A stretch of 64,000 bases of DNA. It comes from Elusimicrobiota bacterium (GTDB lineage: Bacteria; Elusimicrobiota; Elusimicrobia; UBA1565). The notes under the pieces were generated by a model. The model ran no database searches, had not been told where the DNA came from, and saw only the letters and a program-made list of their open reading frames with translations. Of this stretch, positions 11,006 through 44,236 are shown piece by piece (the stretch's first letter is position 1; each line of letters opens with the position of its first letter). The DNA lies in assembly GCA_016196755.1 (NCBI GenBank), contig JACPXC010000007.1, positions 310,001-374,000 on the forward strand, in the 5' to 3' direction. A program made the position numbers and the translations under genes.

Positions 11006-12065
11006 TCTTCCCCCAAGCGAACGGCCCTTTCGGGAAATTCATCGCCAGCGTCACCGCCAGGTCGATATCTTTCGACGACGCCACGCCGCCTTGGACCATG
11101 AGCTCGGCCTCGGCCGCGACGGCGGCCATGACCCGCGCGAAGACCTCCTCCGGCGGGAGCGGTTTCTTGAAGCGCGGCACCAGCGACACCGCGGCGGGGT
11201 TCTCGGCGTCCTTGCGGCCCTGGAGGTAGAGATAGAAGCCGGCCGCCGACTTGACGCCCTTAAAGCCCATACCGACCAGCTTCTCCTGAAGCCAGTGAGG
11301 CGCCAGGCGCTCGGGCGAGCCCAAGCCCGCGAAGATCGACTTGGTGATGGCGAGGTTCACTTCCAGGCCGATGAAGTCCATCAGCGTGAAGGGCCCCATC
11401 GGCAGGCCCTGGGCGGTCAGCGCGGCGTCGAGCTCCGTGAAGGTCCCCGCCCCCTCGCCGGCCAGGCGCTGGGCGACGAGATAATAGGGGCGCACCACGC
11501 GGTTGACGAGGAATCCCGGCCCGTCCTTGACCGCCACCGGCTCGCGCCCGAGTTCGAGGGCCAGGTCCCAGGCCGCGCTCAAGGCCTTCTCGCCGGTGCC
11601 CGGGTGGCGCACGACCTCGACGAGCTTCATCGCCACCGGCGGGTTGAAGAAGTGCAGGCCCACGAGGCGCTCGGGGGCTTCCATCCCCTCGGCCACCTGC
11701 GAGACCAGGAGCGAGGACGTGTTGGTGGCCAGGGTCACCGGCGCCGGCACGAGCCGCTCGAGCTCGGCAAGGAGCCGGCGCTTGAGGGCCAGGTCCTCGA
11801 ACACCGCTTCGACGACCAGGTCGCAGGCCGCCAGGTCGCTCAGGGCTCCCGCGGTGACGAGACGGCCCAAGGCCGCGTCGGCCGAAGCCTGCGTCAGCTT
11901 GCCCTTGGCGACCGCGCGGCCGAGGCTCTCCCGGATGGAAGCCTTGGCTCGGGTCAGGGCCGCGGGGTCCGCGTCGTTTAAGAGGACGCGCAGGCCGTTC
12001 TGAAGCCCCAACTGGGCGATGCCGCGGCCCATCGTCCCGGCGCCGACGACGCCGAGGGTCCTCAC
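10989..12065 (-). CDS. 3-hydroxyacyl-CoA dehydrogenase (PaaH/HbdA type)
   Basis: This 358-residue protein opens with the Rossmann motif LGVVGAGTMGRGIAQLG. It then has VVEAVFEDLALKRRLLAELE, the active-site region LATNTSSLLVSQVA and VGLHFFNPPVAMKLVEVV, and GPGFLVNRVVRPYY. It oxidises 3-hydroxyacyl-CoA to 3-oxoacyl-CoA with NAD. At 358 residues it is longer than the roughly 290-aa single-domain enzyme; the extra C-terminal helices look like a second 3HCDH half. The GTG at 12065 overlaps the TGA of the PaaA-like gene (GTGA). Confidence 0.9.
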   Translation of the reverse strand: MRTLGVVGAGTMGRGIAQLGLQNGLRVLLNDADPAALTRAKASIRESLGRAVAKGKLTQASADAALGRLVTAGALSDLAACDLVVEAVFEDLALKRRLLAELERLVPAPVTLATNTSSLLVSQVAEGMEAPERLVGLHFFNPPVAMKLVEVVRHPGTGEKALSAAWDLALELGREPVAVKDGPGFLVNRVVRPYYLVAQRLAGEGAGTFTELDAALTAQGLPMGPFTLMDFIGLEVNLAITKSIFAGLGSPERLAPHWLQEKLVGMGFKGVKSAAGFYLYLQGRKDAENPAAVSLVPRFKKPLPPEEVFARVMAAVAAEAELMVQGGVASSKDIDLAVTLAMNFPKGPFAWGKSGAKA

Positions 12066-12892
12066 CCGGGGATGAACGGCTCCTCGGTCATCTTCTTCTC
12101 CTCGGGCGTCCAGGCCGGGGCCTTGAGGCCGTACTCGGCGCACTTCTTGGCGATGTCGGCCGCGAAACTCTGGCGGACGTCGTCGTTGTCGCGCTTCTTG
12201 AGGCCGTACTTGCGGTAGAGGGCGTTCTTCTTGGAGCCGCGGCGGCCGAAGATGTTCATCGTCCGCGGGTACCAGGTCTCGAGCGCCTTCTGGGTCTCGT
12301 CCTTGGTCTTGGGGTCGGCGGCCAGGCGCTTGACCCACTGGTCGCCGTGGGCCATGTGCATGGTCTCTTCCTTGAAGATCCCCTCCATCGTGTCGCACCA
12401 GGGCTTGTAGGAGCAGTCCAGCGAGTCCTCGAGCTGGTGCCCCGCGCCGCGGTCCATGCAGAAGTTGAACATGATGAAGTCGTACCAGGTCTCGATCGGG
12501 TAGTAGAAGATGTTGACCCGCTTGTCGTCGGCGACGCGCTCGGTGCCGATGTCGGCCGAGTCGGACACGCGCAGGCTGAAGTTGTGCTTGCCGAAGTACT
12601 CGTCGACGTCGACGCCCATCCCCTCGAGAAGGCGATACATGACCCGCGCATGGCGGATCTCGTCTTTGACGATCTGGCTGACCACCAGGGTCTCGCGGAT
12701 GTCGGGGGACTTCATGATCCACGGCACGTAGCCGTAGCCGCCCGCCAGCTCGGAGTCCGCCTGCATCATCATGAGGTTGGTCAGGAGTTCGCGGTACTCG
12801 GGCGTCATCTCCGAGACCGAGACGATCTTCTCGCCCTTGGCGAGCTTGGCCATCAGGCGCTCTTCTTTCTCAGCATCGGTCATGTTCGCCAT
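12062..12892 (-). CDS. PaaA-like diiron monooxygenase component
   Basis: This 276-residue protein resembles the catalytic subunit of phenylacetyl-CoA epoxidase. Candidate diiron ligands are E48, the pair E78-x2-H81 (KDEIRHARVMY) and E176-x2-H179 (EETMHMAHG), with DRGAGHQLED/DCSYKPW between them as in PaaA. The helical segment WYPRTMNIFG and the C-terminal region also agree. The epoxidase normally needs PaaB, PaaC, PaaD and PaaE; none is next to this gene. Adjacent crotonases and a hydroxyacyl-CoA dehydrogenase support an aromatic or other acyl-CoA pathway. The ATG at 12892 overlaps the paaG-like stop (TGATG). Confidence 0.8.
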   Translation of the reverse strand: MANMTDAEKEERLMAKLAKGEKIVSVSEMTPEYRELLTNLMMMQADSELAGGYGYVPWIMKSPDIRETLVVSQIVKDEIRHARVMYRLLEGMGVDVDEYFGKHNFSLRVSDSADIGTERVADDKRVNIFYYPIETWYDFIMFNFCMDRGAGHQLEDSLDCSYKPWCDTMEGIFKEETMHMAHGDQWVKRLAADPKTKDETQKALETWYPRTMNIFGRRGSKKNALYRKYGLKKRDNDDVRQSFAADIAKKCAEYGLKAPAWTPEEKKMTEEPFIPG

Positions 12893-13710
12893 CACTCCCC
12901 CTTGAACCGAGGCGCCCGCCCCTCGAGGAAGGCGTTGACGCCCTCGAGGTGGTCCTTGGTCTTGCCCAAGACCTCTTGGAGCTGGGCCTCGTACTCGAGC
13001 ATAGCGTCGAAATCGGCGTCCGCCGCGCGGTTAAACGAGCGCTTGGTTACCGCCAAGGCCCGCGGCGCGGCGGCCAGGAGCTTGTCGACCAAGGTCCGGA
13101 CCTCCGAGCGCAGCTCCTCGGCGGGCACCACCTTGTTGACCAGCCCCCAGCGCTCGGCCTCGGTGGCGAGGATGGGCTTGCCGGTCCAGGCGTGCTCCAA
13201 GGCGACCGAGCGCCCCATCGCGCGGACCAGCATGTGGGTGAAGCCGGAGTCCGGGGCCAGCCCCACCGCGCCGAAGGCGGCGATGAACTTGGCGGTCGGG
13301 GCGCAGATCTTCACGTCGGCGGCGAGGATGAGGCTGGCCCCGGCGCCGGCGGCCAGGCCGTTGACGGCGCCGACGACCGGCTTCTCCATGCGGCGGAGCT
13401 GGGCGATCATCGGATTGAACCAGCGGCGCAGCTGACCGCCCAAAGACGGGACCACGCCCTCGCGATAGCCCTTCTTCAAGTCTTCCAAGTCGGCGCCGGC
13501 GCAGAACGCGCGGCCCGCGCCGGTCAGGACGACGACCCGCACCGAGGGGTCCTTCTCGGCCTTCTTGAGCGCGGCGAGCAGGCCCTCCATCATCCCGTGG
13601 GTCAGGGCGTTGAGGACCTTGGGGCGGTTCAGCGTAAGAGTGAGGACGGCGCCGTCCTGCTCGACGAGCAGTTCGGCCTCCACCGCGGTCTCGGTCTTGG
13701 TCTCAGGCAT
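12892..13710 (-). CDS. Crotonase, PaaG-like isomerase
   Basis: This 272-residue crotonase has the oxyanion-hole segment GRAFCAGADL and a second one around NGLAAGAGASL. Where hydratases have a Glu in the GTIPGAGG loop, this protein has LAPDSGF, the Asp arrangement known from PaaG, which isomerises the ring epoxide of phenylacetyl-CoA to the oxepin and also shifts double bonds. The position beside a PaaA-like gene supports that reading. TGATG overlaps at both ends indicate tight coupling. Confidence 0.8.
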   Translation of the reverse strand: MPETKTETAVEAELLVEQDGAVLTLTLNRPKVLNALTHGMMEGLLAALKKAEKDPSVRVVVLTGAGRAFCAGADLEDLKKGYREGVVPSLGGQLRRWFNPMIAQLRRMEKPVVGAVNGLAAGAGASLILAADVKICAPTAKFIAAFGAVGLAPDSGFTHMLVRAMGRSVALEHAWTGKPILATEAERWGLVNKVVPAEELRSEVRTLVDKLLAAAPRALAVTKRSFNRAADADFDAMLEYEAQLQEVLGKTKDHLEGVNAFLEGRAPRFKGE

Positions 13711-14492
13711 CAGTTCCCCGTGAACTCGGCGCGGCGCTTCTCGCGGAAGGCCTTCATGCCTTCCTTCTGGTCGGCGCTGGCGAAGGTGAGGTAGAAGAGC
13801 TTGCGCTCGTAGTCGAGCGCGGCCTCGAGGCTCAGGTCGGCGCCGCGCGTGAGCGCTTCCTTGGCGAGGACTGCGGCCAGCGGCGCCTTCTTGGACACGG
13901 TCCGGGCCAAGGCCAGCGCCTCGTCGTAGAAGGCTTCCGTCGGGACGACCTTGTTGACCAGGCCGTAGGCCAGCGCCTCGCGGGCGCTCAGCTTGCGCCC
14001 GGCGAGGATGACCTCCATCGCCACCGCCTTACCGACCGCGCGGGCCAGGCGCTGGGTGCCGCCGGCGCCGGGTATGGTGCCGATCTCGATCTCGGGCTGG
14101 CCGAAGACGGCGCTCTCGGAGGCCACGATCATATCGCAGGTCATCGCCAGCTCGCAGCCGCCGCCCAGGGCGAAGCCGCTGACCGCGCCGACAAGCGGCT
14201 TGCGCAGGCGGCGCAGGCGGTCCCAGCGCTCCATCTGACCGGTGCGCGTCATCTCGACGGGAGTCGCGGACTCGAGTTCCTTGATGTCGGCGCCGGCCGC
14301 GAAGGCGCGCTCGGACCCGGCCAGGAGCAGGCAGCGGACCTCGGGGTCCTGGTCGTGGGCCTCGAGCGCCGCGACGAGACGCTCCATGACCGCGTAGCTC
14401 AGCGCGTTTAAGACCTGCGGGCGGTTGATGCGCACCACGCCGACCGCGCCGTCGCGCTCGGAGAGGACCTCGTCTAAGACTGCGGTCTCCAT
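13710..14492 (-). CDS. Enoyl-CoA hydratase
   Basis: This 260-residue crotonase has both catalytic glutamates in their usual settings: the GGGCELAMTCD block and the EIEIGTIPGAGGTQRL loop. The oxyanion-hole segment is ERAFAAGADI. It should hydrate enoyl-CoA thioesters, as PaaF/EchA do, feeding the 3-hydroxyacyl-CoA dehydrogenase in the same operon. The ATG lies one base after the stop of the aldehyde dehydrogenase gene. Confidence 0.9.
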   Translation of the reverse strand: METAVLDEVLSERDGAVGVVRINRPQVLNALSYAVMERLVAALEAHDQDPEVRCLLLAGSERAFAAGADIKELESATPVEMTRTGQMERWDRLRRLRKPLVGAVSGFALGGGCELAMTCDMIVASESAVFGQPEIEIGTIPGAGGTQRLARAVGKAVAMEVILAGRKLSAREALAYGLVNKVVPTEAFYDEALALARTVSKKAPLAAVLAKEALTRGADLSLEAALDYERKLFYLTFASADQKEGMKAFREKRRAEFTGN

Positions 14493-14493
14493 C

Positions 14494-16002
14494 TCAGTTC
14501 AAGTCCACCCAGACGCTCTTGACCTGGGTGTAGCCCTCGATGGCGTAGGGGCCCTTCTCGCGGCCGTAGCCGGACTGCTTGACGCCGCCCCACGGGGCGG
14601 CCGCGTCGACGAACTGGTAGCAGTTGAGCCAGACCACGCCGGCCTTGAGGCCCTGGGCCATGCGGAAGGCGCGCTTGATGTCCTTGGTCCACACCCCGGC
14701 CACCAGGCCGTAGGGCGTGCCGTTGGCGCGGGCCAGGACCTCGGCCTCGTCCTCGAAGGGCATGACGGCCACGACGGGGCCGAAGATCTCCTCCTGGGCG
14801 ATGCTCATGGAATCCTTGACGTCGGTGAAGACCGTGGGCTGCACGAACCAGCCGCCCAGCCCGGCCGCGCGCTCGCCGCCGGCCAGGAGCTTGGCCCCGT
14901 CCTTCTTGCCGGCTTCGATGTAGCCCAGCACGCGCTTCATCTGGGTCTCGCTGACCAACGGGCCCATGCGGGTCGTCGGGTCGATGCCGGGGCCCTGCCG
15001 GATCTTCTTGGCGCGCTCGGCCAAGGCGGAGACCAGGCCGTCGAACTTAGACTTGTGCACGAACACCCGGGAGCCGGCCGAACAGGTCTGCCCCTGGTTA
15101 TAGAAGATGCCCATGAACATGCCTTTGGCCGCGGCGTCGAGATCGGCGTCGTCGAAGACGATGTTGGGCGACTTGCCGCCCAGCTCCAAGGACACCTTCT
15201 TGAGGTTGCCGGCCGAGGCCTTCACGACCGCGCGGCCCGTCTCGGTCGAGCCCGTGAAGGTGATCTTGTCGACGTCCATGTGGGCGGCCAAGGCCGCGCC
15301 GGCGGTGGGACCGAAGCCGGGAATGACGTTGACCACGCCCGGCGGGATGCCGGCCTCGAGGACCAGCTCGCCCAGGCGCAGGGCGCTGAGCGGGGTCTGC
15401 TCGGCGGGCTTGAGGACGAGGACGTTGCCGCAGGCCAGGGCCGGCGCCAGACGCTCGACGGCCATCAGCAGCGGGAAGTTCCACGGGATGATGGCGCCGA
15501 CGACGCCGATCGCCTCGCGGACGGTGTAGTGGAGGAATTTGGCGCCCGGGTAATAAGGGACGCTGACCGGGGTGGTCTCGCCGGCGATCTTGGTCGTCCA
15601 GCCCGCGAAGTAGCGCAGCAGGTCCGAGCAGAGCGGCAGGTCGCCCTTCATGGCCTCGCCGATGATCTTGCCGTTGTCGAGCGTCTCGAGCTGGGCCAAC
15701 TCCTCGGCGTGGGCGTCGACGAGGTCAGCCAGCTTGTTGAGGAGCTTCCCGCGCTCCGACGGCGTCACCTTGGACCAGGGCCCCTCGAAGGCGGCGCGGG
15801 CGGAGGCCACCGCGGCGTCGACGTCGGCCTTGTCGGCCTCGGAGACCGCGCCGAGCGTCTCGCCGGTGGCGGGGTTCGTGGTCAGGAAGGTCTTGCCGGA
15901 GGCGGCGTCGACCGCCTTGCCGTCGATCAGGAGCTTGTGGACCTTGCGGTCGAGGAACCGGCGCGCGTCGGGGTTGAGCTGGGGGGCCGTCGCTGTGGTC
16001 AT
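14494..16002 (-). CDS. NAD(P)-dependent aldehyde dehydrogenase
   Basis: This 502-residue class 1/2-type aldehyde dehydrogenase has the cofactor motif FTGSTETGRAV, the general-base glutamate in LELGGKSPN, the nucleophile cysteine in NQGQTCSAGSR and the C-terminal PWGGVKQSGYGRE block. It leads the catabolic operon, so it may oxidise phenylacetaldehyde (FeaB-like) or a ring-cleavage semialdehyde; specificity cannot be read here. A GGAGG site precedes the ATG. Transcription is probably from the 16003-16058 gap, divergent from the cytochrome gene. Confidence 0.92.
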   Translation of the reverse strand: MTTATAPQLNPDARRFLDRKVHKLLIDGKAVDAASGKTFLTTNPATGETLGAVSEADKADVDAAVASARAAFEGPWSKVTPSERGKLLNKLADLVDAHAEELAQLETLDNGKIIGEAMKGDLPLCSDLLRYFAGWTTKIAGETTPVSVPYYPGAKFLHYTVREAIGVVGAIIPWNFPLLMAVERLAPALACGNVLVLKPAEQTPLSALRLGELVLEAGIPPGVVNVIPGFGPTAGAALAAHMDVDKITFTGSTETGRAVVKASAGNLKKVSLELGGKSPNIVFDDADLDAAAKGMFMGIFYNQGQTCSAGSRVFVHKSKFDGLVSALAERAKKIRQGPGIDPTTRMGPLVSETQMKRVLGYIEAGKKDGAKLLAGGERAAGLGGWFVQPTVFTDVKDSMSIAQEEIFGPVVAVMPFEDEAEVLARANGTPYGLVAGVWTKDIKRAFRMAQGLKAGVVWLNCYQFVDAAAPWGGVKQSGYGREKGPYAIEGYTQVKSVWVDLN

Positions 16003-36432: not shown

Positions 36433-38124
36433 ATGATCCTCGCCGCGCTGCTGGCCCTCCTCGCCTTTCCGGCCCGGGCCGTCCCCATCCTGACCCCCGC
36501 CGAGGCTTTCTCCCTCGGCCAGGTCGGCCTAGTCGAGTCCCCTGACGGCACGGTCGAGTCCGCCGCCTCCGTCTCCTCGCGCGCCGCCGCGGCCGCGCTC
36601 CTGGCTCCCGCCCTGCTCGACGGCCACCCGGACCTGCGCCGCGCCGCCGTCGAGGCGTTAGGCAAAGTGGGCGCTCCCTCCGACGAGGCTTCCTTGATAA
36701 GCGCGGCCGCCGACCCCGAGCCGGCCGTCCGCGGCGAGGCCGCCTTGGCGCTGTTCCGGCTGGTCTTCCTCAAACGCATCCCCCGATATTCCCCTGCCGC
36801 CATCGCCCGCCTCTCGCTTCTGGCCGGCGATCCCGACCCCGAGGTGCGCTGGCGCACGGTCTACGCGGCCTCGCGCTGGCCGGAGCCGCGCCTGAGCGAG
36901 GTGCTGCCCAACGCCGCGCGCGACGCCGACTGGCGGACCCGCCTCTTCGCGGTCCGTTCCCTGGCGAAGCTCGGGTTTGCCCCCGACCCCGACCTGCTGG
37001 CCGACCCCGAGCCGTACGTCCGCGCCGAGGCGGTGGCGGCGTTCTCCGCGGCCAAGGCCTGGATCAGACTTCCCGACGCCCTCTTCGGCGACCCCTCCAG
37101 CCACGTCCGCGCCGCGATGGCCGACGCCGCGGCAGCTTCGGGTGACGCCGCGCGCTTCGTACCGCTCCTCGAGCGCCTCGCCGCCGGGCCGGGGACTCTG
37201 GCCGAGGGCCGTGCACTCCTCGCGCTGGCCAAGCTCCTCGGCGGGGCCTCCGCCAAGGTCCTGGCCGAGGCGCGCCAGGACCGCCGCTGGTGGCTGCGCT
37301 GCCGCGCCTACGAGGCCAGCGCCGGGCTCGCCGACGGGCCGGCCATCCTGCTCGCCGGCGCCCGCGACGCCGACCCGCGCGTCGCCGCCCAGTCCCTGGA
37401 GACGCTGGCCGCGTCGAGCCCGACCGCGGCTCTGCCCGAGCTCCAGCGCCTCCTGCGCCGGCCCGACGCCCCGCTCGAGCTCTTGGGCGCCGCCGTCGAC
37501 GCGGCGGGCCAGCGCAAGGACCCCGCCCTGCTCGCGGGCCTCTTGGCCGCCACGCGCTCCAAGGCGGCCAAGGCCTCCCCGGAGCTGCGCGGCTCGATCC
37601 GCAACGCGCTGGCAGCACTCGGGCCCGGCAAGGCCGCGGCGGCCTTCAAGAGCTTCCCACCCTTCGTCGATAAGCCGCGGTCCTTTCCCGCGCTGAGGGC
37701 GCCCGCCGTAATCGAGCTCGAGACCGCGAAAGGGACCTTCGTCATCGCCCTGGCCTCCGGCGCCGAGGCCTCCGTCCACGCCGCGGCGGTCGCCGACGGC
37801 GTCGCGCGCGGACTCTACGACGGCCTCAACTGGCACCGGGTCGTCACCGCCTTCGTGGTCCAAGGCGGCGACCCGCGCGGCTCGGGCTGGGGCGACGCCG
37901 GCTGGCGCCTGGCCGACGAGGACACGCGCCGCCCCTTCCTGCGCGGGACGGTGGGGGCGCCGAAGGCGGGCAAGGACACCGCGGGCTGCCAGCTCTTCGT
38001 GAGCCTCGTGCCCATCCCGCACCTCGACGGCCGCTACACCGCCTTCGGGACCGTGATCTCAGGCCTACATGTGCTCGACCTCCTCGAGCCCGGCGATCTT
38101 ATCGTTAGAGCGCGCTTGCGATGA
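36433..38124 (+). CDS. Exported HEAT-repeat protein with C-terminal cyclophilin domain
   Basis: This 563-residue protein has a signal peptide (MILAALLALLAFPARA). About 370 residues of HEAT-like helical repeats follow (for example HPDLRRAAVEALGKVGAPSD, DPEVRWRTVYAASRW, DPRVAAQSLETLAA). The last 150 residues are a peptidyl-prolyl isomerase of the cyclophilin type: YDGLNWHRVVTAFVVQGGDPRG, GCQLFVSLVPIPHLDGRYTAFG. It should be a periplasmic folding factor that uses HEAT repeats to hold clients. Its stop overlaps the first TPR-kinase ATG (ATGA), which ties it to kinase signalling. Confidence 0.88.
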   Translation: MILAALLALLAFPARAVPILTPAEAFSLGQVGLVESPDGTVESAASVSSRAAAAALLAPALLDGHPDLRRAAVEALGKVGAPSDEASLISAAADPEPAVRGEAALALFRLVFLKRIPRYSPAAIARLSLLAGDPDPEVRWRTVYAASRWPEPRLSEVLPNAARDADWRTRLFAVRSLAKLGFAPDPDLLADPEPYVRAEAVAAFSAAKAWIRLPDALFGDPSSHVRAAMADAAAASGDAARFVPLLERLAAGPGTLAEGRALLALAKLLGGASAKVLAEARQDRRWWLRCRAYEASAGLADGPAILLAGARDADPRVAAQSLETLAASSPTAALPELQRLLRRPDAPLELLGAAVDAAGQRKDPALLAGLLAATRSKAAKASPELRGSIRNALAALGPGKAAAAFKSFPPFVDKPRSFPALRAPAVIELETAKGTFVIALASGAEASVHAAAVADGVARGLYDGLNWHRVVTAFVVQGGDPRGSGWGDAGWRLADEDTRRPFLRGTVGAPKAGKDTAGCQLFVSLVPIPHLDGRYTAFGTVISGLHVLDLLEPGDLIVRARLR

Positions 38125-39659
38125 GGATCCTCCTTGTCCTGCTCGCCTCCGCGGCGCTCTGTCGCGCCGACCAGGCTTCCGACACGCGGTCCCTGGCCCT
38201 TACTGACGACGCCGAGCAACTGCTCAAGATGCGTGATGCCGATGGGGCGGCCCGCCTAGCCGAGGAGGCCGCCGAACTCAAGCCTGACAATATGCGCGCG
38301 CTCTGGGCGCTCTTTGAAGCCCGCCGCGCCGCGAAGCGTTACAGCGACGCCCTCGAAGCTCTCGACCGCGCGCTGCGCGTGGAGCCTCGACGAGCCAAGC
38401 TCCTCAACGCACGCGCCGAGACCCTGAACCGTCTGGGCCGCAGCCGTGAGGCCTTGGCCGCTGCCGAAGCCACGCTCGCCGCCGCAGATCCGAAGTACGC
38501 GGTCGCGGCGCATGTCAACCGGGCGCTGGCGCTCGACGGCCAGGGTCAGCGCGCCGCGGCGCTCGAGGCCTTGGCCCCCGCCGGCCGACTGCGGCCCGAC
38601 CTCAGGCCCAAGCTCGACGAGGCCAACGCCCTTGCGCCCGACACCCCGCTGAGCGCGGTCTTCGAGGGCGGGGCCAAGCCCCGCTCCCCGCGCGCGCCGC
38701 CCACGAAGTCGCCTTCGGCGCTGACGCTGGCCTTGGGGCTCGGAGCCCCGCTCCTCATCGTCGCGGGCTGGCGGACGTTCCGACCCCGCCGGCGGGCGTT
38801 TACGCCCATGCCCGAGCCGCCCCCCACGCCGCCCGCAACGCCCGCCGGCGGCCTAGCGGGCGCGGGCATCACGCTCGGGCGCAAGATCGGCCAGGGCGGC
38901 ATGGGCATCGTCTATGAGGGCCTAGACGTCAAGCTCAACCGGCGCGTCGCGCTCAAGAAGATGCGCTCGGAGATCCGCTCCGACCCCCGCGAGCGCGAGC
39001 GCTTCGTGCGCGAGGCCAAGACCGTGGCCGCCCTGCGCCATCCCAACATCGTCGAGATCTACGCCATCATCGAGGACGGCTCGGACGTCTTCCTGGTCTT
39101 CCAGTTCGTCTCCGGCAAGACCGTCCATGAGCTGCTAGGCGAGAAGGGACGCCTGCCCTTCGCCTACACGGCGGCCCTCATCAAGGCGGTCGGCGCGGCG
39201 CTCGACTACGCCCACGGCATGGGCGTCGTCCACCGCGACCTCAAGCCCGCCAACATAATGGTCGAGGACAGCGGGATGGTCAAGGTCATGGACTTCGGCG
39301 TGGCGCGCCAGGCCAAGGACGCGCTCTCGCGCATGTCGGTGACCAACACGGTGGTCGGCACCCCTCCCTATATGGCCCCCGAGCAGGAGCAGGGCGTCGT
39401 ATGCCCGGAGTCCGACGTGTTCGCCCTGGGAGTCTGCGGCTACGAGATGCTGACGGGCGAGCTGCCCTACCAGGGCATCGGCGCGGGGATGCTGATGGCC
39501 AAGCTCAAGGGCGCCTACGTCCCGGCGTCGGGCCTGACGCCCGGCTGTCCCCCGGGGCTCGACGCGGCGCTGGCCCGCGCCCTCGACCCCGACCCCGAGC
39601 GCCGCTACCCCAGCGGCTCCGAGTTCGCCGCCGCCCTGGCCGCCCTAAGCGCGAATTAG
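38121..39659 (+). CDS. Membrane Ser/Thr kinase with extracytoplasmic TPR region (kinase 1)
   Basis: This 512-residue protein has a signal-like start (MRILLVLLASAALCRA), TPR-like helices (about 28-170), a TM helix (about 199-216), a Pro-rich linker and a Hanks-type kinase (about 249-510). The kinase has GQGGMG, K279 in VALKKM, D373 in HRDLKPANIM, D391 in MDFG, and MAPEQ. All catalytic residues are present. The order puts the sensor outside and the kinase at the C-terminus inside, the reverse of PknB. It is coupled to the HEAT-cyclophilin gene. Confidence 0.88.
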   Translation: MRILLVLLASAALCRADQASDTRSLALTDDAEQLLKMRDADGAARLAEEAAELKPDNMRALWALFEARRAAKRYSDALEALDRALRVEPRRAKLLNARAETLNRLGRSREALAAAEATLAAADPKYAVAAHVNRALALDGQGQRAAALEALAPAGRLRPDLRPKLDEANALAPDTPLSAVFEGGAKPRSPRAPPTKSPSALTLALGLGAPLLIVAGWRTFRPRRRAFTPMPEPPPTPPATPAGGLAGAGITLGRKIGQGGMGIVYEGLDVKLNRRVALKKMRSEIRSDPRERERFVREAKTVAALRHPNIVEIYAIIEDGSDVFLVFQFVSGKTVHELLGEKGRLPFAYTAALIKAVGAALDYAHGMGVVHRDLKPANIMVEDSGMVKVMDFGVARQAKDALSRMSVTNTVVGTPPYMAPEQEQGVVCPESDVFALGVCGYEMLTGELPYQGIGAGMLMAKLKGAYVPASGLTPGCPPGLDAALARALDPDPERRYPSGSEFAAALAALSAN

Positions 39660-39695
39660 GGCCGGTCGTCCCTGGCGCGCAGACGGTATTGCCTC

Positions 39696-39701
39696 TATCC
39701 T
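39696..39701 (+). promoter_or_regulatory. -10 box of kinase 2
   Basis: TATCCT ends 9 nt before the GTG at 39711, giving almost no leader. It lies in the 51-nt gap after kinase 1. Confidence 0.35.
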
Positions 39702-39710
39702 TATGGCACG

Positions 39711-42200
39711 GTGGTGCGCCTACGCCCGGGGCCGTTTTCGCTGGCCTTGGTCCTGTCGCTAGGGGCCGTCCTGGTCTATGCCCACGGTCCGGGAGGAGGA
39801 GGCCCCTCCGGCGGTGGAAGCGGCGACGGACGAGGCAACAGACCCCACCGCACCCCGCGGGGAGCGGGTGGCGCCGATCCCGGCCGCCGCACGCCCGCTG
39901 GCGAGCGCGCCCGAAACATCGGACACAGCCATCGCGGCCTCAGCCAGGGCGCGTCGGGCGCCGCGGTCCAGCGCGCGAACTCGCTGCCTCCACAAGGCCA
40001 GGATCAGTTCTTCATCGCGCTCGAGAGCTACCTCCTGCGCGGCGTCCCCATCACCTCGGACAACGACCTGCAGTACATCCAGAACCACATGGGCGGGCCG
40101 GACGGCCCCTACGCCGCGCCCGACGGCGCCCTCCAGAAGGCCGCCGGCGGCAAGCGCCTTGGCGCCACCGCGCAGGACGCAGGCGGCGGCACCGAGCTGG
40201 CGGGGCCGGGCCAGGGAGCGGCGCCTTGGGAGGTCGGGGTCTCGAAGAAGCTCATCGACGCCGACCTCGACATGAGCTCCAACGACCGCTACGCCTTGCG
40301 CGTGGGCGGGATCCAGGACTCCTTCAACGCCGACTATCGCGCCGGCTTCAGCCAGCTGGGCAAGGCCATCGGCGCCGGCATGCGCGACCCCACCGCCCTG
40401 GCCTTCGGCGCGCTGGCCGCCTTCCACCGCAACGACATGAAGGCCGCCGCCAAGTGGGCCAAGGCCTCGCTCGACAAGGCCCCCAAGGGGCCGTGGGCCG
40501 AGATGTCGGACTCGGTGCTGCACCTGACCAAGAAGAACGTGGCCCACGCCTCGGCGCCGCCCAAGCCCAAGCCGCTCAGCATGCCGCAGAGCGGCGGCGA
40601 ACAGCCCGGCGGCGCCGTGGGCCCGGCGCTCTTCCCTCAAAAGACCGGCGGCGAGGCCGGCGGTAAGGAGGCCGCGGAGACTCTGCGCGCGGCCCAGCGC
40701 GCGCTGGCCGTGCGCGACTATCCTCTGGCCGAGGAGTTGGCCCGCAAGGTGCTTTTCGACGACCCGCGCAATCCCGAGGCCCTTAAGGTCAGCGTCTCGG
40801 CCTCCCTTCGCATGGGCCGCTACGCCCCGGCTTACGAGGACGCCGGGCTCGGGCTGGCCGACCAGCCGGCCGACGCCGAGCTCCTGCGCGCCCACGGTGT
40901 GGCGGCCGGGCGCACGGGCCGCTACGAGGCTGCCCTCTCCGACGCGCTGACCATGCTGCGCACCGACGCGCACAGCTCGGCGGGCCTACGCCTCCGGGCC
41001 TTCGCCGAGGCCGGCCTGGGCGACCGGGCCGCCATGCGCCAGGCGCTCGAGCGCGCGGCCGCCTCCGACGCGGCGGGCGCCGAGCTGCTGCGCCGAGCCA
41101 GCGCACTGCCCGAGGGCGCCGACCCGATGGCGCTCTTCTCCGACTCCTTGCTGCTCGACGATGAGGCCGCCCCCGCGCCGGCGACCGCCGGCGCGCCGCC
41201 GCCGCTCGAGGGCGCCGTCAGCGGCCGGGTGCTCGGCCTGGGCTTCCTTGCCCTGCTCGGGCCCTTGGCCGGCCTCTGGGCCCTCAAGTCGCTGCGCGGC
41301 GGAGGAGCCGGCCTCCCGCGCCGCACCTCTCTCGACCTGTCCGGCCTCATGCGCAAGAGCGGGCTCACCCCGGCCGCGCGCGCGGTCACGCTCCCGGCCC
41401 ACGTCGGCCCCTACCAGGTGCTGGAACCGGTCGGCCATGGCGGGATGGGCGTCATCTACAAGGCCAAGGACACCGGTCTCGACCGTCTTGTGGCGCTCAA
41501 GAAGATGCGCGAGGAGATCGCCGCCGACCCCCGCGAGCGCAAGCGCTTCCTCAAAGAGGCGAACATCGTCTCGGGGTTGGAGCACCCGGGCATCGTGCGC
41601 ATCTACGCGGTGCACGAGTCGCCGGAGGGCGACTACCTGGTCTTCGAGTTCGTCGACGGCAAGACCTTGGCCCAGCACCTGAGCGAGCGCGGCCGACTGC
41701 CTTTCCGGGAGGCGCTCGGGCTCTTGGCCCAAGCCGCCGAGGCCGTCGCCTACGCTCACGGAAGGGGCATCGTCCACCGCGACCTAAAGCCGTCGAACAT
41801 CATGCTCGACGTGAAGGGCCGCGTACGGGTCATGGACTTCGGCGTGGCCCGCGCGTCGAAAGACGCCATCACGCGCTTGACCGCCCAAGGGGCGACGACC
41901 GGCACGCCCGCCTACATGGCTCCCGAGCAGGAGGACGGCAAGGCGTCGCCGGCTTCCGATATCTATGCGCTGGGGGTCTGCCTCTACGAGCTCCTGACCG
42001 GGCGTGCCCCCTACGAGGGGACGGGGCTGGCGCTCTATCAGGCCAAGCGCGCCGGAGCCCCGCCGCCGCTGGCCTCCGTCCTGGGCCCCGACGCCCCGGC
42101 CGCGCTCGACGAAGTGTTGGCCAAGGCCTTGGACGCCGACCCCTCCAAGCGCTACGCCTCGGCGCGTGAGCTGGCCGCGGCCCTCGCCGTTCCAAAGTGA
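39711..42200 (+). CDS. Membrane Ser/Thr kinase with extracytoplasmic repeat region (kinase 2)
   Basis: This 829-residue protein from GTG 39711 (a second GTG follows directly) has an N-terminal signal/anchor (FSLALVLSLGAVLVYA). A long Gly/Pro-rich and then helical region follows, holding a block shared with kinase 3 (WEVGVSKKLIDADL ... GGIQDSF, about residues 168-280) and TPR-like helices (320-480). A TM helix lies near 505-523 and a Hanks kinase near 565-825, with GHGGMGVIYKAKD, VALKKM, D691 in HRDLKPSNIM, MDFGVA and MAPEQE. The kinase is intact. Confidence 0.87.
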   Translation: MVRLRPGPFSLALVLSLGAVLVYAHGPGGGGPSGGGSGDGRGNRPHRTPRGAGGADPGRRTPAGERARNIGHSHRGLSQGASGAAVQRANSLPPQGQDQFFIALESYLLRGVPITSDNDLQYIQNHMGGPDGPYAAPDGALQKAAGGKRLGATAQDAGGGTELAGPGQGAAPWEVGVSKKLIDADLDMSSNDRYALRVGGIQDSFNADYRAGFSQLGKAIGAGMRDPTALAFGALAAFHRNDMKAAAKWAKASLDKAPKGPWAEMSDSVLHLTKKNVAHASAPPKPKPLSMPQSGGEQPGGAVGPALFPQKTGGEAGGKEAAETLRAAQRALAVRDYPLAEELARKVLFDDPRNPEALKVSVSASLRMGRYAPAYEDAGLGLADQPADAELLRAHGVAAGRTGRYEAALSDALTMLRTDAHSSAGLRLRAFAEAGLGDRAAMRQALERAAASDAAGAELLRRASALPEGADPMALFSDSLLLDDEAAPAPATAGAPPPLEGAVSGRVLGLGFLALLGPLAGLWALKSLRGGGAGLPRRTSLDLSGLMRKSGLTPAARAVTLPAHVGPYQVLEPVGHGGMGVIYKAKDTGLDRLVALKKMREEIAADPRERKRFLKEANIVSGLEHPGIVRIYAVHESPEGDYLVFEFVDGKTLAQHLSERGRLPFREALGLLAQAAEAVAYAHGRGIVHRDLKPSNIMLDVKGRVRVMDFGVARASKDAITRLTAQGATTGTPAYMAPEQEDGKASPASDIYALGVCLYELLTGRAPYEGTGLALYQAKRAGAPPPLASVLGPDAPAALDEVLAKALDADPSKRYASARELAAALAVPK

Positions 42201-44236
42201 CGCGTCCCCTAGCGCTGGCTATGCTCCTGACGCTGGGCGCGGCCCCTGCCCGCGCCTCTGATGCCGACGTTCGGTACATCCAAGAGCGCGCCGGAAAGCG
42301 CGGCTCCGACGCCGGCGAGGCGCGCAAGGCGTCGCCGTGGGAAGCCGGGGTCTCCAAGAAGCTCATCGACGCAGACCTTGCGCGAGACCCCGGCGACCGT
42401 CATGCCCTGCGGGTCGGGGGCATCCGGGATTCCTTCCATTCCGACTATCCGGAGGCCCTGCGCAAGCTCGACAAGGCCATGGCGGCCGGCGTGCGCGACC
42501 CGACGACGCTGGCCTTCGCGTCGCTGGCCGGTTTCCATCACGGGCGGATGAAAGACGCGGCGGCCTGGTCCAAGGCCTCGCTCGAGGCGGCCCCCGACGG
42601 GCCCTGGGCCAAGATGGCCGACGCCGTCCTCCACCTGACCAAGGAGAACCTCTCCCGAGTCTCGGACCCGCAGAAACCCAAGCGTTTCGGACTGCCGCCC
42701 GTCAGTCGCAAGGCTGAGGAGCCGCAAGGAGCGGTCGGCCCCGCGCTGTTCCCGCAGCCGGACGCCGCGAAGGAAGGCGCCGGCGGGGGTTCGGCGGAGA
42801 TCTTGCGCGCGGCGCGGCGCGCCTGGACGGTCCGCGACTACTCCGGGGCCGACGCGCTGGCCCGCAAAGTCCTCGCGGAGCGTCCCGGCGACCCCGAGGC
42901 CCTGACCCTAGCCGCCGCCGCGGCACTGCGCCGCGGCCGGTATCAGCAGGCGATCGCCGACGCTCTGGCTCTGCCGCTCTCCGGCGCGGGCAGCGCCGCC
43001 GGCGCGCGGCTCTTGGCCTACTCCCAAGCCGGCCTCGGCGACCGGGCCTCGATGCTCAAGACCTTGGAGCGCGGGGCGCGCGGCGACCCGGCTACCGCCG
43101 AGCTGCTGCACCGCGCCCGCGCGCTGCCCGAGGGCGCCGACCTGACGGCGCTCTTCACGGACGCGCCGCTCCTCGACGACGAGACGTTGCCGTCCGCCCC
43201 GGAGCAAGCCCCCGCCGTGCCCGTAAAGGTCGCGGGATCAGGACGAGTCTTCCTCCTGGGCCTGCTCGCCCTCCTGGGGCCGCTGGCCGGACTCTGGGCG
43301 TTCCGGCGCCTGCGCGGCGGCGGGGCCGACCTGCCGCGCCGGACCTCGCTCGACGTGGAGCTCCTCAAGCGCCGCTCCGGCCTGACCCCGGCCGCGCGGC
43401 CGGTCAGCATGCCGACGCGCGTCGGCCCGTACCGCGTGCTCGGGCCCGTGGGCCACGGGGGGATGGGCGTGATCTACAAGGCCAAGGACACCGCCCGGGA
43501 CCGCCTCGTGGCGCTCAAGAAGATGCGCTCGGAGATCGCCGCCGACCCGCGCGAGCGCGAGCGCTTCTTAAAGGAAGCGCGCTTGGCCGCGGCGCTCGAG
43601 CATCCCGGCATCGTGCGGCTCCACGAGGTCTACGAGGCGGCCGCCGGAGCCTACCTGGTCTTCGAGTATGTCGACGGCAAGACCCTCGCCCAGTACCTGC
43701 TCGAGCGCGAGCGCCTACCCTACCGCAAGGCGCGCCGGGTCATACTCTCGGCCGCCGCGGCCGTCGCCTACGCCCACGAGCACGGCGTCGTCCACCGGGA
43801 CTTGAAGACCACCAACATCATCGTCGACGTGAAGGGCGCCGTGCGGGTCATGGACTTCGGCGTGGCGCGCGCCTCCAAAGACGCCATCACGCGCCTGACC
43901 CAGGGCGCGCCGGTGGCCGCGCAGGGGCACCTTGCTCCCGAGCAGGAGGACGGCGGCGCCTCCACGGCGCTCAGCGACGTCTACGCGCTGGGCGGCTGCC
44001 TCTACGAGCTTCTAGCCGGCAGGCCGCCGTACGCGGGAACCGGCCTCGAGCTCTACCAAGCCAAGCGCGCCGGCCCGCCGCCGCCGCTGGGAGAGCTCCT
44101 CGAAGCCGAGGACCCCGCGGGCGTCGACGCCCTGCTGGCCAAGGCTTTGGCCGCCGGCCCGTCCGCGCGGTTCGCCTCGGCGGGCGATTTCGCCGCGGCG
44201 CTCAAGGCTCACTCCAGCCGGAAGATGATGACCTGA
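42197..44236 (+). CDS. Membrane Ser/Thr kinase with extracytoplasmic repeat region (kinase 3)
   Basis: This 679-residue protein is a shorter tandem paralogue of kinase 2. It has a signal peptide (MTRPLALAMLLTLGAAPARA), the shared block WEAGVSKKLIDADL ... VGGIRDSF (about 48-140), TPR-like helices, a TM helix near 350-368 and a kinase near 415-675. The kinase has GHGGMGVIYKAKD, VALKKM, D535 in HRDLKTTNII and MDFGVA. The activation segment ends LAPEQE, and the DFG-APE stretch differs most from kinase 2. GTG 42197 overlaps the kinase 2 stop (GTGA). Its last 28 nt overlap tonB on the other strand. Confidence 0.87.
   Translation: MTRPLALAMLLTLGAAPARASDADVRYIQERAGKRGSDAGEARKASPWEAGVSKKLIDADLARDPGDRHALRVGGIRDSFHSDYPEALRKLDKAMAAGVRDPTTLAFASLAGFHHGRMKDAAAWSKASLEAAPDGPWAKMADAVLHLTKENLSRVSDPQKPKRFGLPPVSRKAEEPQGAVGPALFPQPDAAKEGAGGGSAEILRAARRAWTVRDYSGADALARKVLAERPGDPEALTLAAAAALRRGRYQQAIADALALPLSGAGSAAGARLLAYSQAGLGDRASMLKTLERGARGDPATAELLHRARALPEGADLTALFTDAPLLDDETLPSAPEQAPAVPVKVAGSGRVFLLGLLALLGPLAGLWAFRRLRGGGADLPRRTSLDVELLKRRSGLTPAARPVSMPTRVGPYRVLGPVGHGGMGVIYKAKDTARDRLVALKKMRSEIAADPRERERFLKEARLAAALEHPGIVRLHEVYEAAAGAYLVFEYVDGKTLAQYLLERERLPYRKARRVILSAAAAVAYAHEHGVVHRDLKTTNIIVDVKGAVRVMDFGVARASKDAITRLTQGAPVAAQGHLAPEQEDGGASTALSDVYALGGCLYELLAGRPPYAGTGLELYQAKRAGPPPPLGELLEAEDPAGVDALLAKALAAGPSARFASAGDFAAALKAHSSRKMMT

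Follow-up and report, generated by a model that had tools for sequence, protein, structure and literature searches.

Can a PaaA-type diiron oxygenase operate without the partner proteins of the phenylacetyl-CoA epoxidase? The question is raised by a gene in the stretch of DNA analyzed here (the window), which comprises 64,000 nucleotides of contig JACPXC010000007.1 (positions 310,001 to 374,000) of the Elusimicrobiota bacterium assembly GCA_016196755.1. The gene encodes a stand-alone PaaA-like diiron protein, named PaaAL here, in an operon with crotonases, among them a PaaG-like isomerase, a 3-hydroxyacyl-CoA dehydrogenase (HADH) and an aldehyde dehydrogenase (ALDH). The initial annotation described this gene content, and the profile scores and open reading frames (ORFs) bear it out. 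The operon, the absence of the tested partners, the intact diiron ligands, the PaaA fold, the separate clade and the linkage to PaaK and PaaX elsewhere were computed directly. As judged from sequence, with a probability of about 55%, PaaAL would serve as the oxygenase component in a ring-epoxidation pathway of the Paa type that does without PaaB, PaaC and a dedicated PaaE.

Fold and diiron site of PaaAL

PaaAL scores 129.4 bits against PF05138, the PaaA_PaaC superfamily, and is thus a member by the gathering cut-off of 28.5, whereas its 105.8 bits against the PaaA equivalog model TIGR02156 fall below the cut-off of 280. Identification as PaaC was rejected (TIGR02158, 44.3 versus 133.35 bits) as the protein also falls outside the PaaC clade (99/97), and identification as BoxB was rejected on the score (TIGR03225, 35.9 versus 499.1 bits) and on the tree. 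The AlphaFold2 model of PaaAL has a mean pLDDT of 91.7. Its best structural matches in the PDB are PaaA chains (Z 28.5 over 247 residues), followed at lower rank by SSO1313 (Z 26.7), PaaC (23.8) and BoxB (22.3).

The diiron ligands of E. coli PaaA are E42, E72, H75, D126, E155 and H158, according to PMC4498308. The initial annotation had named the loss of iron ligands as a refutation of its proposal; in the alignment all six are intact in PaaAL (E49, E79, H82, D148, E177 and H180), as they are in 36/36 rows of the PaaAL family. Phe108, which orients the substrate in E. coli PaaA, is retained as F130. In contrast, Y56 and I75 replace the lysine-bridge residues E49/K68 of the E. coli protein, with Tyr/Ile likewise present in all 36 family rows, and the C-terminus is ~49 residues shorter than in E. 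coli PaaA. It is very improbable that PaaAL is a remnant or a repurposed diiron protein devoid of epoxidase activity, such as a PaaC-like structural or regulatory protein: the ligands are invariant, the mean column identity is 69% over 38 family sequences from several phyla, five of the six PaaC rows have lost at least one ligand, and the Tyr/Ile change recurs in Thermus- and Chloroflexi-type PaaA. Such a fate would account for the lost lysine bridge and the missing dedicated reductase, and one PaaC, that of Haloferax, does retain the six ligand columns.

Phylogeny and known systems

The phylogeny called for in the initial annotation places the PaaAL family apart from PaaA, PaaC and BoxB-like proteins. 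The tree comprises 66 rows (36 PaaAL, 4 canonical PaaA, 3 Thermus/Chloroflexi PaaA, 6 PaaC, 2 extra proteobacterial sequences and 15 others) and carries a warning of long branches joining among the non-family rows. The 36 PaaAL rows form one clade with support of 100/99, separate from PaaA, PaaC and the other rows.

Among the closest known systems, PaaA of the E. coli PaaABCE phenylacetyl-CoA 1,2-epoxidase (PDB 3PVR, 3PW8) has the fold, the six ligands, Phe108 and PaaG/PaaF/PaaH-like neighbors in common with PaaAL. It differs in that PaaAL is 22-25% identical in structure alignments, lacks the lysine bridge, has a shorter C-terminus and was found with no PaaB, PaaC or conserved PaaE. The Thermus/Chloroflexi-type PaaA (L166, L213 and L169) resembles PaaAL in that Tyr and Ile replace the lysine-bridge residues, but it occupies a separate branch, and a PaaC-like protein is encoded near L166 and L213. 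BoxB is not known to require a PaaC-like subunit. This benzoyl-CoA 2,3-epoxidase (PDB 3PER, 3PM5) has the same fold as PaaAL and co-occurs with it in some Rokubacteria genomes; in contrast, it has ~470 residues compared with 277, and two BoxB-like proteins lie in another branch than PaaAL. The best PDB sequence match of PaaAL (E 2.2e-18) is the similarly short SSO1313 of Sulfolobus solfataricus (PDB 4MUD), which is ~25% identical and outside the rows of the tree; this locus name was not found in the open-access papers searched.

An extra PaaA homologue of 251-253 residues in proteobacterial paa clusters (L164:8004-8765 and L165:7971-8726, 'Phenylacetic acid catabolic protein') was considered as a second stand-alone form and rejected, because it lies beside paaABCD and a paaE-type gene. 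Located after the latter gene in both clusters, it occupies a branch of its own in the tree, and its ligands are altered (K and S or G). Further uncharacterized branches of the PaaA/PaaC superfamily, with ligands mostly kept, are present in Rokubacteria-type genomes (L202, L204-L210 and L212).

Partner proteins in the genome of origin

The genome that contains the window (4.59 Mb, 67 contigs) is rated 100% complete and 2.74% contaminated. Its single PF05138 match is PaaAL itself; no second PaaA/PaaC homologue, and hence no PaaC partner, was found. The PF06243 profile search for PaaB returned no match, and the best genome-wide PaaE score (TIGR02160) was 126.8 bits against a cut-off of 420.8. 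The claim that PaaBCDE are missing therefore stands genome-wide for PaaB, PaaC and a conserved PaaE. For PaaD the search covered the surroundings of related genes, where E. coli PaaD gave tblastn matches in 0/80 loci (4/5 controls were found) and no genome-wide profile search was run. The search of the rest of the genome for paa genes, also suggested at the outset, did not recover PaaK, the phenylacetate-CoA ligase, either. Thus neither of the two outcomes that the initial annotation regarded as refuting its proposal, further paa genes in the genome or lost iron ligands, was observed in these searches. The best candidate (L198/L217) was rejected, being a segment of a far longer ORF with weak similarity.

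A sub-cut-off PaaE-like reductase with FAD, NAD and Fer2 (2Fe-2S) domains and an N-terminal hydrophobic stretch is encoded ~25 kb away (G000:C37:296467-297723; L034:6468-7727). It was rejected as the dedicated partner of PaaAL since both same-genus relatives carry PaaAL without the reductase; at E<=1e-20 it was found in 3/97 genomes including this one, with 29-33% identity in the other two. A PaaJ-type thiolase is unlinked, on C44, with 53.6% identity to E. coli PaaJ and 515 bits against the pcaF model (cut-off 597).

The notion of a self-sufficient oxygenase, also put forward in the initial annotation, finds no support in the architecture of PaaAL, a single 277-residue PaaA-fold domain. It has no reductase or ferredoxin domain, and electrons must therefore come from another protein.

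Relatives and their PaaA/PaaC complements

PaaAL is carried by 45/97 genomes, this one included, and the other copies are 61-92% identical. Both crotonases are present in all 40 Elusimicrobiota-type loci of named records, HADH in 35, ALDH in 34 and a thiolase in 4, with several contigs ending early. Given this frequency and the recurring operon neighbors, PaaAL is not a chance ORF. A COX1 match was found in 45/45 PaaAL carriers (44 over the cut-off) versus 31/52 non-carriers (Fisher p = 4e-7, uncorrected for kinship), which fits the expectation for an O2-using enzyme. PF05138 matches occur in 34/294 Elusimicrobiota genomes, exactly one in each (one being a sub-cut-off fragment).

The scan of named genomes yielded 110 PaaAL relatives, 80 of which were kept; the tree was built with 35 of the kept sequences and the structure alignment with 37. 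They are labeled Elusimicrobiota, Rokubacteria/Methylomirabilota, Vampirovibrio and other Cyanobacteria-labeled bins, Tanganyikabacteria, Chloroflexi and Acidobacteria, and the identity within the family ranges from 57 to 92% over Elusimicrobiota, Rokubacteria/Methylomirabilota, Melainabacteria-type, Chloroflexi and Acidobacteria bins. The E. coli PaaB, PaaC, PaaD and PaaE queries gave no tblastn match in any of the 80 loci. In five control paa loci the same procedure recovered PaaB in 3, PaaC in 3, PaaD in 4 and PaaE in 2. The Thermus-type PaaC was missed in 2/5, so that the profile counts carry the argument for the absence of PaaC.

PaaB was found in none of the 40 genomes behind the distant loci L122-L161 (0/41 with the genome of origin). 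PF05138 has 103 matches in these 40 genomes, with 1-6 in each and a single match in 11. From the further matches 21 ORFs were extracted, 3 of the Thermus-like PaaA/PaaC type and 18 others; of the latter, L200, L201 and L203 had uncertain limits and were left out, so that 15 entered the tree, and 4 additional ORFs were extracted later and stayed outside it. The 15 sampled homologues occupy branches other than PaaAL and PaaC. Chloroflexi G332 and G352 additionally hold a Thermus-like PaaA set. Five genomes with PaaK beside PaaAL (G317, G326, G333, G348 and G353) have one further PF05138 match each, which is BoxB in the first three (857-862 bits, cut-off 499) and BoxB-like in the last two (212-221 bits), with all six ligands present in each case. 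These five genomes thus pair PaaAL with a BoxB-type protein and no PaaC.

The operon in the window

The five genes are transcribed from the minus strand in the order ALDH, PaaF-like, PaaG-like, PaaA-like, PaaH-like:

14494-16002, minus strand: aldehyde dehydrogenase (ALDH), first gene of the operon; StyD models score highest, below their cut-offs
13710-14492, minus strand: enoyl-CoA hydratase of the PaaF type; E114 and E134 aligned to glutamates of E. coli PaaF
12892-13710, minus strand: PaaG-like isomerase (crotonase); best NCBIfam model PaaG, TIGR02280
12062-12895, minus strand: PaaAL, stand-alone PaaA-like diiron protein; 277 residues, GTG start, PF05138
10989-12065, minus strand: 3-hydroxyacyl-CoA dehydrogenase (HADH), PaaH-like; GTG start, 4-base overlap with the end of PaaAL

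One junction has a 1-base gap and the remaining three have overlaps of 1-4 bases. In the NCBIfam ranking, PaaG is the top model of the PaaG-like crotonase, PaaF ranks third with the PaaF-type crotonase and PaaH second with the HADH, and each score is below the equivalog cut-off. As the four enzymes flanking PaaAL are all below the listed NCBIfam cut-offs, their gene names denote resemblance only. The PaaG-like protein reaches 246.8 bits with TIGR02280 (cut-off 345) and shares 40.5% identity with E. coli PaaG. It has S126 and F146 at the hydratase-glutamate positions, where PaaG itself has T116 and F136, and a PD motif is common to both proteins. Residues E114/E134 of the PaaF-type crotonase align with E109/E129 of E. 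coli PaaF, a numbering checked by the alignment only. The dehydrogenase is 42% identical to E. coli PaaH over aligned columns. The ALDH is 43.7% identical to E. coli phenylacetaldehyde dehydrogenase FeaB versus 25.9% to PaaZ (294 aligned columns).

Elsewhere in the window, three consecutive large proteins with protein-kinase domains are encoded at 38121-44236 on the plus strand.

Gene neighborhoods in other phyla

PaaK matches were found in 20/40 non-Elusimicrobiota loci, all among the 26 Rokubacteria/Methylomirabilota loci (20/26). In 18 of these PaaK lies directly upstream of PaaAL, with 5-82 bases between the matched stretches; none of the three PaaK copies that were scored beside PaaAL attained the cut-off of 646, their values being 511-600 bits. 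The Methylomirabilota locus L159 has the gene order PaaX-like (254 bits, cut-off 264.55), PaaK-like (600 bits, cut-off 646), ECH, PaaF type, PaaAL, PaaH type, and L154 shows the same matches, so that a PaaX-like gene is present in two operons. Seven Melainabacteria-type loci (Vampirovibrio-, Tanganyika- or Cyanobacteria-labeled) match PaaF, PaaG and PaaH, and six of the seven also match PaaJ. In Melainabacteria-type genomes an EthD-domain protein is encoded upstream of the PaaAL operon (5 loci, for example L149:6581-6919 and L161:548-877).

The PaaK linkage bears on the substrate. Conceivably the Elusimicrobiota PaaAL oxidizes another CoA ester (aryl-, aryl-alkyl- or unsaturated acyl-CoA) that the crotonases and the dehydrogenase degrade by ordinary beta-oxidation, phenylacetyl-CoA being confined to the Rokubacteria/Methylomirabilota branch. 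PaaK is missing from the genome of origin and from the Elusimicrobiota-type loci, the ALDH is FeaB/StyD-like rather than PaaZ-like, and the acidobacterial context differs (LigB and DHDPS-like genes). We nevertheless consider this restriction doubtful, as Phe108 is kept as F130, the PaaG/PaaF/PaaH-like set recurs in Melainabacteria-type operons with PaaF- and PaaH-like genes in the PaaK-linked L159, and the PaaAL of the window is 57-61% identical to ten PaaK-linked sequences (alignment A2). The non-aromatic acyl-CoA substrate envisaged in the initial annotation hence remains a candidate for the genome of origin, which has no PaaK, while in Rokubacteria/Methylomirabilota the adjacent PaaK- and PaaX-like genes suggest phenylacetyl-CoA or a closely similar compound as substrate.

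In Acidobacteria/Blastocatellia (L125:5664-14145 and L126:10001-18484), PaaAL is accompanied by a DHDPS-like protein, two ALDHs, a Phenol_Hydrox-type protein, a ferredoxin, a LigB-type protein and a thiolase, according to annotation for L126 and clustering for L125. This set possibly represents a different aromatic pathway. The ferredoxin of L126 has two 4Fe-4S motifs and is of a possible donor type for PaaAL.

Two small conserved ORFs of no assigned family recur in Rokubacteria just upstream of PaaK or PaaAL, between a glycosyltransferase gene and PaaK or PaaAL (cluster 13 in 10/26 loci, cluster 19 in 6/26; in L127, 9407-9739 and 9109-9396, respectively). The copies tested had no Pfam or NCBIfam match. 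Such ORFs would fit a PaaAL that still acts in a complex, in which PaaC/PaaB are replaced by a subunit from another locus, unrelated to them or very diverged, and PaaE by a shared reductase. Canonical PaaA requires PaaC for solubility, as stated in PMC4498308, and diverged partners can escape tblastn, as did the Thermus-type PaaC in the controls. Such a hidden complex is nonetheless unlikely. The PaaC-type protein does not escape PF05138 in Chloroflexi G332 (122.8 bits), all 34 Elusimicrobiota genomes with a match have a single copy, and the five PaaK-linked genomes otherwise hold BoxB-type proteins only. Moreover, two gene clusterings, one of which took in 18 related carriers, revealed no unassigned gene beside PaaAL in more than one phylum-level group, although short or very diverged proteins would escape them.

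Proposed function

The ligands, fold and neighbors argue for an oxygenase acting on an aromatic CoA ester, and the PaaK linkage indicates phenylacetyl-CoA for some members of the PaaAL family at least. That PaaB, PaaC and a conserved PaaE were not found and that the lysine bridge is lost fits a partner-free oxygenase with a general electron donor. In the proposed pathway PaaAL would bind an aryl-acetyl-CoA, most likely phenylacetyl-CoA, and activate O2 at its complete diiron site to yield the ring 1,2-epoxide. Isomerization of the epoxide would fall to the neighboring PaaG-like enzyme, and the ALDH, PaaF-like hydratase, PaaH-like dehydrogenase and unlinked PaaJ-type thiolase would complete the degradation. 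A PaaAL homo-oligomer may take the place of PaaC, and a general ferredoxin or ferredoxin reductase presumably supplies the electrons; where BoxB is present, the BoxA reductase might be the donor. In Elusimicrobiota, the FeaB-like ALDH heading the operon could make the arylacetate, which another ligase would activate.

Several observations weigh against this assignment. Canonical PaaA is described as insoluble without PaaC in PMC4498308, and no conserved electron donor of PaaAL was found. PaaK is absent from the genome of origin (TIGR02155, best 78 bits, cut-off 646), so that the CoA ester there must arise by another route, and PaaK has no match in the 40 Elusimicrobiota-type loci (0/40). The ALDH is FeaB-like and not PaaZ-like, and an oxepin hydrolase was not found; the sole MaoC-type match (C62) is unlinked, among genes that appear unrelated, judged by eye without tool annotation. 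Since the Haloferax PaaC (1/6 PaaC rows) also keeps six ligand columns, the ligands alone are no proof of catalysis. In the 40 distant genomes, 40 of the 103 PF05138 matches were taken as PaaAL and 25 ORFs of the other 63 were inspected, so PaaC is possible in some of them. The cluster 13 and 19 proteins could be unrecognized partners of PaaAL. The acidobacterial neighbors (LigB-type dioxygenase, DHDPS-like enzyme, Phenol_Hydrox-type protein and ferredoxin) differ, and therefore substrates may differ too. The COX1 association takes no account of kinship.

More broadly, and tentatively, with the odds falling just short of even, PaaAL may represent a new class of ring epoxidase for CoA esters, the third after PaaABCE and BoxAB, namely a single subunit, present in several phyla, that replaces the whole of PaaABC(D)E, lacks the lysine bridge proposed for electron transfer from PaaE and draws on a general ferredoxin.

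Significance

PMC13186573, a phenylacetate-pathway survey of 2026, states that PaaA and PaaC were retained in all 825 PaaK-bearing proteomes, and even its 'partial' modules comprise PaaA with PaaC; words beginning 'elusimicrob' and 'rokubacter' are not in the main text. Within the open-access papers searched, no report of PaaA acting without PaaC was found. With a PaaK-type ligase beside PaaAL (and a PaaX-like gene in two loci), no PaaB and, in the five cases checked, no PaaC, organisms of this kind would be missed or misread by marker-based surveys. PaaAL also offers a natural test of the roles of PaaC, PaaB and the lysine bridge, being a PaaA relative that apparently manages without them. 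It further raises the prospect that Elusimicrobiota and Melainabacteria-type bacteria degrade aromatic compounds aerobically.

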